NCBI GenBank assembly: GCA_900314935.1
Contig: OMXE01000006.1
Coordinates: 60,323 to 124,322, forward strand
Origin: an uncultured Prevotella sp.
Lineage (GTDB): Bacteria; Bacteroidota; Bacteroidia; Bacteroidales; Bacteroidaceae
Reading direction: 5' to 3'
DNA: 64,000 bases
Every line of letters starts with the position of its first letter. Position 1 is the first letter of the stretch. Position numbers and translations under genes: made by a program. Under the pieces are notes generated by a model, which was given only the letters and a program-made list of their open reading frames with translations, searched no databases and was not told where the DNA came from. Shown piece after piece: positions 5,153 to 39,599 of the stretch.

Positions 5153-5184
5153 TTTGTGGGGTAGGTAAAAATCCCGTACCTTTG
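5153..5184 (+). promoter_or_regulatory. Promoter of small RNA copy 1
   Basis: TTTG at 5153-5156 and TACCTTTG at 5177-5184 with a 20-bp spacer, the standard Bacteroidetes sigma-ABfr arrangement. No open reading frame follows; the conserved RNA begins 5-6 nt downstream. Confidence 0.8.
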
Positions 5185-5189
5185 TCGCC

Positions 5190-5282
5190 GTTATCCTGAA
5201 TACAATCTTTTTACCTTAAAAAAAGCTAATACCTATTTGAGATAGATGCCTGCCTCTGCGAAGAGCCAGGCATTCTTGTTTA
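5190..5282 (+). ncRNA. Putative small RNA, copy 1 (two-member family)
   Basis: A transcript of about 93 nt is predicted from GTTATCCTGAA just after the promoter to a strong intrinsic terminator: ATGCCTG-c-CTCT-GCGA-AGAG-c-CAGGCAT (5246-5273) followed by TCTTGTTTA. The first 50 nt or so match the minus-strand copy at 35855 almost base for base (GTTATCCTGAA, ACAATCTTTTTACCTTAAAAA, CTAATACCTATT, GAGAT). The terminator hairpins of the two copies are unrelated in sequence. Conservation of the 5' part with divergence of the hairpin is typical of a trans-acting sRNA seed region. It lies between the divergent glnS and bglX promoters. I do not recognise it as a named Rfam family. Confidence 0.65.
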
Positions 5283-34699: not shown

Positions 34700-35761
34700 A
34701 TGAAACTGAACATTGCAGTATTACCGGGCGATGGTATCGGACCGGAGATTATGAAACAGGGCGTGGCCGTGATGGATGCCATTGCGGAGAAATACAACCA
34801 TGAGTTTAGCTACGAAGAGGCCATTTGTGGCTCTCACGGGATTGATGAGGTAGGGGATCCGTTTCCTGAGGAGACGTTCCAGACCTGTATGCGGGCGGAT
34901 GCTGTGCTCTTTGCTGCGGTAGGTGATCTGCGCTTCGACAATGATCCTACGGCGAAGGTACGACCGGAAACGGGTCTGCTTGCCATGCGCAAGAAATTAG
35001 GTCTGTTTGCGAATGTACGCCCTGTAGCCACCTTCGACTGTCTGTTACATAAGAGTCCGCTGAAAGAGGAACTGTTGAAGGGTGCCGACTTCGTGGTGAT
35101 CCGTGAGCTGACGGGTGGTATGTATTTCGGTGAGAAGTACCAGGACAATGACAAGGCTTATGATACGAATGTCTATACCCGTCCGGAAATAGAGCGAATC
35201 TTGAAGGTGGGATTTGAGATGGCCATGACTCGCAAGAAGCATCTCACCGTGGTGGACAAGGCGAATGTGCTGGCCTCGTCACGTCTCTGGCGACAGATTG
35301 CGCAGGAGATGGAACCGCTGTATCCTGAGGTGACAACCGACTATATGTTCATTGACAATGCTTCCATGCGTGTTCTTACGGAACCGCGGTTCTTTGATGT
35401 CATCGTCACAGAGAACACCTTCGGGGATATCCTTACCGACGAAACCAGTTGTATTACAGGAAGTATGGGATTGCAGCCATCTTCTTCGTTAGGAGAGCAT
35501 ACACCGCTCTTTGAACCGGTACATGGTTCTTGGCCGCAGGCTGCAGGACAGAACCGCGCCAATCCGCTGGCACAGATTCTCTCAGCTGCTATGCTTTTGG
35601 AACATTTCGGCTTAACAAAGGAAGGCGCTAAGGTGCGCGAAGCAGTCAATGCCAGTTTGGATGCCCTTGTCCGTACCCCTGAGATTCAGGTGGAAGGCGG
35701 TAAGCAGTATGGTACCAAAGAAGTGGGAGAGTGGATCGTTGACTATATCCGGAACCATTGA
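34700..35761 (+). CDS. leuB: 3-isopropylmalate dehydrogenase
   Basis: 353 residues, isocitrate/isopropylmalate dehydrogenase family. Seen are [11 protein letters not shown] near residue 8, [22 protein letters not shown] near 90, the catalytic-site [14 protein letters not shown] near 188, [12 protein letters not shown] near 235 and the NAD-binding [18 protein letters not shown] near 273. It oxidises and decarboxylates 3-isopropylmalate to 2-oxoisocaproate using NAD. It follows the citramalate-synthase-like gene by 3 bp and is the last gene of the operon. Confidence 0.96.
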
Positions 35762-35767
35762 AAAAGG

Positions 35768-35855
35768 CAAAAAAAAGTGACAAGCTTCACAGCTGATCAC
35801 TTCACATCTCAATAGGTATTAGTTTTTAAGGTAAAAAGATTGTTTTCAGGATAAC
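35768..35855 (-). ncRNA. Putative small RNA, copy 2
   Basis: Minus-strand transcript of about 88 nt from GTTATCCTGAA at 35855 to an intrinsic terminator: AAGTGA-tc-AGCT, loop, AGCT-tg-TCACTT (plus-strand 35775-35802) followed by eight T. The 5' part matches copy 1 at 5190 almost completely; the main differences are two extra bases plus one in copy 1 and one substitution. The terminator sequence is unrelated to copy 1. It points back towards leuB and ends just after the leuB stop codon. It may also limit readthrough from the leu operon by converging transcription. Confidence 0.65.
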
Positions 35856-35859
35856 GCTG

Positions 35860-35891
35860 CAAAGATACGGCACTTTTTTTTAATAACCAAA
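35860..35891 (-). promoter_or_regulatory. Promoter of small RNA copy 2
   Basis: On the minus strand, TTTG (plus 35888-35891), 20-bp spacer, TATCTTTG (plus 35860-35867). Same layout as the promoter of copy 1. Confidence 0.8.
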
Positions 35892-38139: not shown

Positions 38140-38147
38140 TAATTTTG
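38140..38147 (+). promoter_or_regulatory. -7 element of putative short transcript 3
   Basis: TAATTTTG; a weak -33 ATTG lies at 38117-38120. About 50 bp downstream is a perfect terminator. Confidence 0.5.
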
Positions 38148-38152
38148 CGCTG

Positions 38153-38221
38153 TGTTTTTCATGGTATTAGATTATTAAGGTTAATAAAGATTGATTGTCG
38201 TGAGACAATCAATTTTTTTTT
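38153..38221 (+). ncRNA. Putative short RNA complementary to the small RNA family
   Basis: Predicted transcript of about 69 nt between the -7 element at 38140 and the terminator at 38191. It contains GGTATTAG (38163), TTAAGGT (38175) and AAAGATTG (38187), in the same order and near-equal spacing as in the reverse complement of small RNAs 1 and 2. It could pair with them or with related leaders. Alternatively it is only the untranslated end of the DUF3256 transcript or an upstream leader of nupG. Confidence 0.4.
38191..38221 (+). terminator. Intrinsic terminator
   Basis: Perfect 9-bp stem TTGATTGTC / GACAATCAA with loop GTGA, followed by nine T. Confidence 0.92.
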
Positions 38222-38229
38222 GCTATATA

Positions 38230-38285: not shown

Positions 38286-39599
38286 ATGAATCTGAAATTC
38301 CGTTTGTCGCTGATGAACTTCCTGGAGTTCGCAGTATGGGGAGCCTACCTCACATGTATGGGTAACTACCTGGGAGTAGCAGGTCTGGGTGATAAGATCT
38401 CCTGGTTCTATGCCATCCAAGGTATTGTTAGCATCTTTATGCCCACCCTGATGGGTATCGTAGCAGATAAGTATATTCAGCCACAGCGGTTGCTGGGATT
38501 GTGCCACCTGCTGGCTGGAGCCTTCATGCTGGGCTGCTGGTGGATGGGTATGCAGGCAGGGTTCGGCAACGAATTGCCTAATAAGTCGGCTTTCATCGCC
38601 GTCTATACGCTGAGTGTGGCCTTCTTTATGCCGACGATTGCCCTGGCAAACACCACCGCCTTTACGATTCTGAAGAACAACGGACTGGATACGGTGAAGG
38701 ATTTCCCGCCAATCCGTGTGTTAGGAACAGTGGGCTTCATCGCAACGATGTGGTTCGTGAACTGTGCTGTATGGCAGGATGGATCGTTCTCCATGACCTT
38801 GGCCGACAGTGCACATAAGTTCCAATATACCTATATGCAGTTCTTTGTATCAGGCATTTTGAGTCTGGTACTCTTTGCCTATTGTTTCACTTTACCCGAG
38901 TGCAAGGTGGAGAAGAAGGCAGAGAAGAAGTCGCTGGCAGAGAGTCTGGGCCTCAACGCTTTCAAGCTGTTCAAGCGCAGACAGATGGCTCTGTTCTTCA
39001 TTTTCTCGGCGCTGCTGGGTATGTGTCTGCAGGTGACCAATGGCTATGCGGGTCCGTTCATCACCAGTTTCAAGGGTAGTGCCGATGCAGCCGTGGCTAC
39101 ATCATTTGCAGCCAACAACGCCACGCTGCTCACCTCTATCTCACAGATCAGTGAGGCCTTGTGTATCCTGATGATTCCTTTCTTCCTCAAGCGATATGGT
39201 ATCAAGGTGGTTATGCTCATGTCCATGTTTGCATGGGTGTTCCGCTTCGGCTTCTTCGGTGTAGGTAATCCCGCCATGCCCGGTGTGATCTTCTTCATCC
39301 TCTCCTGTATCGTCTATGGCGTGGCCTTTGACTTCTTCAATGTGTCTGGTGGTATCTTCGTCGATCAGGAGTGCGAGCCTTCCATCAAGGCTTCTGCACA
39401 GGGATTGTTCATGATGATGACCAATGGTATCGGTGCTACTGTAGGAACGCTGGCCGCAGGCGAGATCGTGAACAAGTATTGTACTTGGACAGATGGTTTC
39501 CTGATAGGTGATTGGCAGGCATGCTGGTTCATCTTCGCTGCCTTTGCATTGGTTGTTGGTATTGCGTTCGCTTTGGTATTCAAGCCCGAGAAGAAATAG
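38286..39599 (+). CDS. nupG: Nucleoside:H+ symporter, MFS
   Basis: 437 residues from the ATG at 38286. An in-frame start at 38145 would lie before this promoter and read through the terminator, so it is rejected. About 12 membrane helices; the NHS family pattern is visible in RLSLMNFLEFAVWGAYLTCMGNYL, FYAIQGIVSIFMPTLMGIVADKYI, FPPIRVLGTVGFIATMW and DFFNVSGGIFVDQE near residue 355. It imports nucleosides with protons. It heads a compact operon with rsmE, a DUF4836 lipoprotein and an ABC exporter-like pair. Confidence 0.9.
   Translation: MNLKFRLSLMNFLEFAVWGAYLTCMGNYLGVAGLGDKISWFYAIQGIVSIFMPTLMGIVADKYIQPQRLLGLCHLLAGAFMLGCWWMGMQAGFGNELPNKSAFIAVYTLSVAFFMPTIALANTTAFTILKNNGLDTVKDFPPIRVLGTVGFIATMWFVNCAVWQDGSFSMTLADSAHKFQYTYMQFFVSGILSLVLFAYCFTLPECKVEKKAEKKSLAESLGLNAFKLFKRRQMALFFIFSALLGMCLQVTNGYAGPFITSFKGSADAAVATSFAANNATLLTSISQISEALCILMIPFFLKRYGIKVVMLMSMFAWVFRFGFFGVGNPAMPGVIFFILSCIVYGVAFDFFNVSGGIFVDQECEPSIKASAQGLFMMMTNGIGATVGTLAAGEIVNKYCTWTDGFLIGDWQACWFIFAAFALVVGIAFALVFKPEKK

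Follow-up and report, generated by a model that had tools for sequence, protein, structure and literature searches.

The window analyzed in this work, a stretch of 64,000 nucleotides (64 kb) from an uncultured Prevotella sp., carries two loci of the same build on opposite strands. Copy A, on the plus strand, consists of a promoter at positions 5153-5184 (a -33 box TTTG at 5153-5156 and a -7 box TACCTTTG at 5177-5184) and a predicted sRNA of about 92 nt at 5190-5281, whose conserved block opens with GTTATCC at 5190 and which ends in an intrinsic terminator at 5245-5281 (a hairpin at about 5245-5274 with a GCGA loop, and a T-rich tail to about 5281). Copy B, on the minus strand, has a promoter at 35860-35891 (TTTG at 35891-35888 and TATCTTTG at 35867-35860) and a predicted sRNA of about 88 nt at 35768-35855, with the block starting at 35855 and an intrinsic terminator at 35768-35803 (a hairpin at about 35803-35774 with a GUGA loop, and a T-run to 35768). 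The terminators were identified by folding and the promoters by direct reading, which confirmed the original prediction that promoter, conserved 5' block and intrinsic terminator occur together at 5190 (+) and 35855 (-). TTTG followed, after about 20 nt, by TAnnTTTG is what we take to be a Bacteroidota-type promoter motif. Among the 119 homologous sites listed, TAnnTTTG is located at most 35 nt before the core in 100, and 91 of these 100 sites have TTG 18-26 nt further upstream. Judging from their sequence, both copies are predicted sRNAs that are presumably transcribed in this organism.

According to the list of open reading frames both loci are intergenic, and no gene-like ORF lies over either of them. 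An origin as a coding gene or transposable repeat was ruled out, the copies being intergenic, linked to promoters and present twice in the genome. A GH3 glycosidase gene follows copy A, but copy B is convergent with the Iso_dh gene (34700-35761), so that the RNAs are not favoured as leaders or attenuators of downstream genes. When the whole genome (3.1 Mb, 50 contigs) was searched with the 18-mer GTTATCCTGAANACAATC, allowing up to two mismatches, just these two places were found, with none in the reversed control; elsewhere, the exact 21-nt core is present in at least 120 genome-contig stretches, and the conserved block can therefore not be due to chance. The proposal of a two-copy family is upheld by these searches. 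In an alignment of 47 sequences, the 5' half keeps its sequence and has no consensus fold, and the 3' hairpin keeps its structure, with compensatory changes at 10 of the 10 predicted pairs of the terminator stem. Selection on the 5' half of an intergenic sRNA family, as had been proposed, is thus well supported. The accompanying statement that the two hairpins share no sequence was slightly too strong, because the apical part CUGYGAAG, with its GNRA-type loop, is common to both copies and widespread in the family.

Relationship to the Rfam family BTnc060

Scanning of the whole window with cmscan at gathering thresholds reported neither copy, the one report being FopS at 38152-38222. A more permissive threshold brought out matches of both copies to RF04184 (BTnc060), an uncharacterised Rfam family named after an sRNA of Bacteroides thetaiotaomicron: copy A with 79.3 bits (E 5e-13) and copy B with 76.4 bits (E 1.5e-12), both below the gathering score of 228.9 bits. 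This threshold is very narrow, since a single one of the 14 family loci scanned meets it (L107, from B. nordii), and does so exactly. The low scores are probably explained by the approximately 120 positions that the RF04184 model contains upstream of the block. The core of the model is matched nearly letter for letter by both copies, and their hairpin aligns to the consensus hairpin. The copies thus resemble BTnc060 in a near-identical 5' block and a terminator with a GNRA loop, and they differ in scoring far under the threshold and in being two in this genome. Judged by core and terminator, both are divergent relatives of BTnc060, and they are not members by the Rfam cut-off. The original prediction had left it to comparison whether they belong to one of the known multi-copy sRNA families; the answer is that they are related to BTnc060 and not to the multi-copy FopS family itself.

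The genomic position of BTnc060 is shared by copy A: it and a gene encoding a class I Glu/Gln-tRNA ligase (Pfam), probably glnS, lie in divergent orientation. Copy B lies elsewhere and is an extra copy. Using tblastn, the ligase gene was found in 46 of the 120 listed homologous loci, which is a minimum because no locus exceeds 8 kb. Gene and RNA are divergently oriented in 45 of these 46 loci, and in 34 they lie within 600 bp of each other. In B. nordii L107, which has the same core, the RNA is likewise divergent from the ligase gene, at a distance of about 5 kb. Our literature search found no paper naming BTnc060, and no BTnc060 target turned up in it.

Two models were built for wider searches, R1 from 54 and R2 from 47 sequences; R1 matches copy A with 95.1 bits and copy B with 98.6 bits. 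It also has matches in 113 of the 151 genomes of the window's family and in 32 of 247 order-level genomes, belonging to 15 families. R2 matches in a phylum-wide sample were limited to 3 of 247 genomes, all within the window's family; profile searches of more than 40 genomes, such as these, use filters that lose weak matches. The 31 order-level matches outside this genome were read by eye, and all have the core and the hairpin, the block being shortened in one (G278). Four of the listed core stretches are odd: one is a credible variant (L117), and three (L044, L058 and L112) contain the core without the rest of the block. The number of RNA copies per genome is mostly one or two, with two copies in 9 of the 10 genomes sampled from the genus (this one included) and one copy in the remaining genome. 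Five model matches are present in each of two genomes of genus g315 (G560 and G585). Three copies were read in each of these (L307-L312), and some forms have a degraded CTAATACC with CAATCTTTTTACCT kept, hinting at subfunctions.

Complementarity to the FopS sRNAs

The FopS gene of the window, FopS-1 (RF04319; 38152-38222, plus strand; 75.6 bits against a gathering score of 56), has a -7 box TAATTTTG at 38140-38147 by direct reading and is the predicted pairing partner of both RNAs. It is located 2.3 kb from copy B, back-to-back with it, and upstream of a nucleoside symporter gene (38286-39599). The genome contains a second FopS, FopS-2 (G000:C18:71194-71260). FopS was found within the fetched stretch in 5 of the 120 listed homologous loci: back-to-back with the RNA in L033 and L085, facing it in L030 and L048 (1 to 4 kb), and on the same strand in L052. 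The linkage in L030, L033, L048 and L085 is probably inherited, because the neighbouring genes are common with this window. According to the main text of PMC11697453, FopS sRNAs repress susC translation in B. thetaiotaomicron, FopS-10 binding the start region of susC BT_3983 through its extended seed R1' and repressing translation; the protein RbpB binds FopS 5' regions and counters the repression, possibly by titration.

Like FopS, the two RNAs combine a promoter, a largely single-stranded 5' half and a terminator. Unlike FopS, they have the opposite polarity, being antisense to the FopS seed, so that each is a predicted partner of that family and not a member of it. Membership of the copies in FopS was rejected on this ground and because no sense-strand RF04319 match exists at either copy. 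The FopS model does match the opposite strand of the copy B block, weakly, with 21 bits (E 0.31), which is short of its gathering score. RNAduplex placed the sequence complementary to the FopS 5' half at 5202-5244 (+) in copy A and at 35806-35843 (-) in copy B, the latter in agreement with the antisense match of the FopS model. The predicted pairing spans about 40 nt and consists of four helices with small internal loops, involving FopS nucleotides 1 to 42 approximately. The typical helices (RNA/FopS) are AAUCUUU/AAAGAUU, UUACCUUAAA/UUUAAGGUUAA, [CU]UAAUACC or CUAAUACC/GGUAUUAG, and AUUGAAAA/UUUUUCAU.

The predicted duplex energies with FopS-1 and FopS-2 are -26.1 and -17.9 kcal/mol for copy A, and -28.0 and -20.4 kcal/mol for copy B. 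For these pairs the net gain on co-folding the full RNAs is only -12.0 to -17.5 kcal/mol. In a scan of both strands of the 64-kb window, in 21,314 windows of 60 nt, both copies pair best with FopS-1 (-29.4 for A and -31.3 for B) once the copies' own antisense strands are disregarded. With FopS-1 as the query of the same scan, copy B ranks third and copy A fifth when the FopS-1 antisense is set aside; with FopS-2 as the query, neither copy is in the top eight. A reverse test was carried out on 35 of the 120 listed loci (every second one), with about 1,321 windows each and two FopS types. For the two types, respectively, FopS paired best with the RNA in 29 and 28 of the 35 loci and had it among its five best partners in 35 and 34; four shuffled FopS sequences and a reversed FopS each placed it in the top five in 0 of 35. 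A further test paired the RNA and the best-scoring FopS of 24 order-level genomes that have both loci (out of 29 RNA loci) and were not selected by the exact core. The energies ranged from -24.3 to -31.0 kcal/mol, and all 24 pairs beat more than 99% of the shuffles, with no more than 2 of 500 shuffled RNAs or 3 of 500 shuffled FopS sequences being as good; shuffles of equal dinucleotide content do not reproduce the pairing. A plain nhmmer search of 0.98 Mb with the FopS profile yielded 6 FopS, with no match to an antisense site. The seed complementarity to be expected of a sponge is beyond chance in these comparisons; the FopS-2 ranking counts against it.

The FopS 5' end reads 5'-GUGUUUUUCAURGUAUUAGAUUUAAGGUUAA, and its reverse complement contains AUGAAAAAC, for which reason it fits a start codon. 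The 5' half of the RNA resembles the start-codon sequence that FopS binds (ACCUUAAAA-CUAAUACC-UAUUGAAAA). Most members have AUUG instead of AUG (CTAATACCTATT in 90 and TTAATACTTATT in 11 of the 119 sites listed), and AUG is present in a few, such as L045 and L075. From 95 susC matches in two genomes, 30 start regions were fetched and 28 scored, 15 from a Bacteroides-type genome and 13 from the genome studied here. Five of the 15 Bacteroides-type regions pair with FopS over or beside an ATG with energies of -21.3 to -24.8 kcal/mol, L387 (ACUUAAAAUUAAUACGUAUGAAAAAG) being one of them, and the RNA-FopS duplexes are about equal to or stronger than these five. Two of the 13 own-genome regions reach -23.7 and -23.1, the latter over an ATG that does not belong to the in-frame starts of the susC match, and no clear target was found among them. 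The target motif TAATACN{0,3}ATGAA has 7 matches in this genome versus 6 in the reversed control; two of the 7 are FopS antisense and none is a clear susC gene.

Reading by eye of L184-L210, from other families of the order, showed that the RNA often starts with (T)AACCTAAA, a second short match to the anti-FopS sequence AAGGTTA, which may be a second FopS site.

Co-occurrence with FopS and sequence variation

FopS was detected in 55 of the 247 order-level genomes, above the cut-off in 45, and the number of copies per genome ranges from 1 to 14, often being several. All 32 RNA-positive genomes of this sample have FopS, and the RNA is found in 0 of the 192 FopS-negative ones (Fisher's test: 1e-25 by genome, and 1e-11 by family, assuming 112 families). 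No RNA is detectable in 22 of the 55 FopS-positive genomes, even with the broader model R2, which gained a match in 1 of 23 FopS-positive, RNA-negative genomes (G067) and in 0 of 17 FopS-negative controls. In the window's family, FopS is present in 20/20 genomes with divergent copies and in 15/19 genomes without an RNA match (19 of the 38 such genomes). Likewise, the genomes reached through 50 of the 120 listed core loci have FopS in 48 of 48 cases, 47 of them over the cut-off, two of the 48 stemming from core matches that are not credible. Shared ancestry inflates and confounds all these co-occurrence counts.

No compensatory covariation was found between the RNA and FopS, both sides being nearly invariant. 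The variation is too small for covariation to be seen, because 71 of 92 distinct sequences have CTAATACC; this 92-sequence tally was ungapped and required a nearby TAnnTTTG, which dropped many order-level sequences. Among single-change variants of CUAAUACC, three of the four types (four of five sequences) keep the pairing through G-U. Nine types have several changes. One keeps full pairing (TTAATACT, 8 sequences); the other eight contain changes that break it, part of which are insertions that the ungapped tally counted as changes. Where compared, FopS is unchanged beside the breaking variants (L083 with L144, and L209 with L230). The order-level variants CTGATACC, CTAGTATC and CTAATGCC, read by eye, keep the pairing, and ATTGTACC does not do so fully. 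In G567 and G589, FopS has AAAG in place of AAGG and the RNA still has ACCUU (G044 and G589 are apparently one genome). The conservation of the core is 0.913 at paired columns (n 30) and 0.912 at unpaired columns (n 8); the absence of any difference indicates that another constraint may act on the block.

The 28-nt FopS core was found in 24 IMG/VR viral stretches (L351-L374), some of which may be host flanks of prophages, and of 12 such stretches scanned, 8 score high enough for the FopS gathering cut-off. Viral contigs gave no match to the exact BTnc060 core. A shorter 17-mer returned 24 viral stretches, and R2, applied to these and to the 24 FopS-bearing ones, gave nothing better than E 0.12. 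A phage origin of the RNA was rejected in view of these searches.

Possible functions of the RNAs

The original prediction of a trans-acting base-pairing RNA holds in that the RNAs are probably base-pairing; mRNAs are not favoured as the partners, the best-supported partner being the FopS sRNAs. We consider it probable that both loci encode dedicated, vertically inherited BTnc060-type sRNAs that act as a target-mimic sponge of FopS. The 5' half of the RNA would copy the type of start-codon sequence bound by FopS, and would pair with the R1' seed and occupy it, the 3' hairpin serving as terminator. FopS would in this way be taken off susC and other PUL mRNAs, and their repression relieved, alongside the action of RbpB. 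We infer from the predicted pairing that the duplex would form in the cell, that control would run from the sponge to FopS and not in reverse, and that PULs would be affected.

It might be argued that these are ordinary trans-acting sRNAs with mRNA targets of their own, for which complementarity to FopS would be a coincidence or of lesser importance. Their seed-plus-terminator architecture is typical of such sRNAs, and the equal conservation of unpaired and paired core positions means that pairing with FopS alone does not explain the block. However, a complementarity of about 40 nt that places FopS first or nearly first among genomic windows, together with an RNA that tracks FopS in 32/32 genomes, argues against this explanation, which we regard as unlikely. 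The near-invariance of even the unpaired core positions would also suit a block that is chiefly protein-binding, for instance an RbpB decoy, with the complementarity to FopS as a by-product; RbpB does bind FopS 5' regions (main text of PMC11697453). The block, however, is the complement of FopS and not its likeness, and shuffles of equal dinucleotide content fail to give the pairing, and such a role seems very improbable.

Alternatively, the pairing may be real and the direction reversed or mutual, with the FopS paralogues titrating or destabilizing BTnc060, the effector. FopS could exceed its partner, there being 1 to 14 FopS copies versus mostly one or two copies of the RNA. On the other hand, FopS has tested mRNA targets that it reaches through the same seed (main text of PMC11697453), in keeping with a regulatory role of FopS and a mimic role of the other RNA, and the literature search gave no BTnc060 target. 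We think this reversal quite improbable, and prefer the reading of the RNA as a sponge of FopS.

Known sponge or antagonist RNAs of Pseudomonadota, such as SroC, AsxR and 3'ETS-leuZ, pair with an sRNA and take it off its targets. They are mostly Hfq-dependent and stem from mRNA fragments, tRNA spacers or prophages. The BTnc060-type RNA, unlike these, comes from a free-standing gene that has a promoter of its own and is present in 15 families of the order sample. The PinT antagonist is, in the part of PMC12721325 consulted, likewise an RNA pairing with an sRNA. A related question concerns GibS of B. thetaiotaomicron. Since it has the R1 seed in common with FopS (PMC11697453), it could be partly bound by the sponge; that paper also describes GibS as mismatched at several positions of the R1' extension, and a large part of the RNA-FopS complementarity lies in this extension. 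In the genome studied here, GTGTTTTTCATAGTATTA is located closely before an inverted repeat and a T-run in L247 (G000:C34, about 33714), with no obvious TAnnTTTG box; this element is a candidate R1-only, GibS-like one.

The sequence family is already known, and FopS as its pairing partner is new as far as the literature searched goes. The parts of the literature consulted report no such sponge in Bacteroidota and no pairing between BTnc060 and FopS. The words 'sponge', 'decoy' and 'mimic' are absent from the main text of PMC11697453, and the 'sponge' passage of PMC7366714, in the part consulted, is general.

A wider proposal, to which we would give an even chance, is that BTnc060 is a dedicated, vertically inherited anti-sRNA hub of the order: usually one or two genes imitating susC-type starts would restrain the FopS paralogues of a genome, as many as 14, at once, and would set the threshold of PUL translation. 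BTnc060 may also neutralise phage-borne FopS, given that viral contigs carry the FopS core and gave no match to the exact BTnc060 core. An RNA antagonist of FopS, if true, would add a layer of control over susC-type glycan importers that can be regulated from its own promoter. It would also provide a function for the uncharacterised Rfam family BTnc060, and a means of switching 14 related sRNAs at once.
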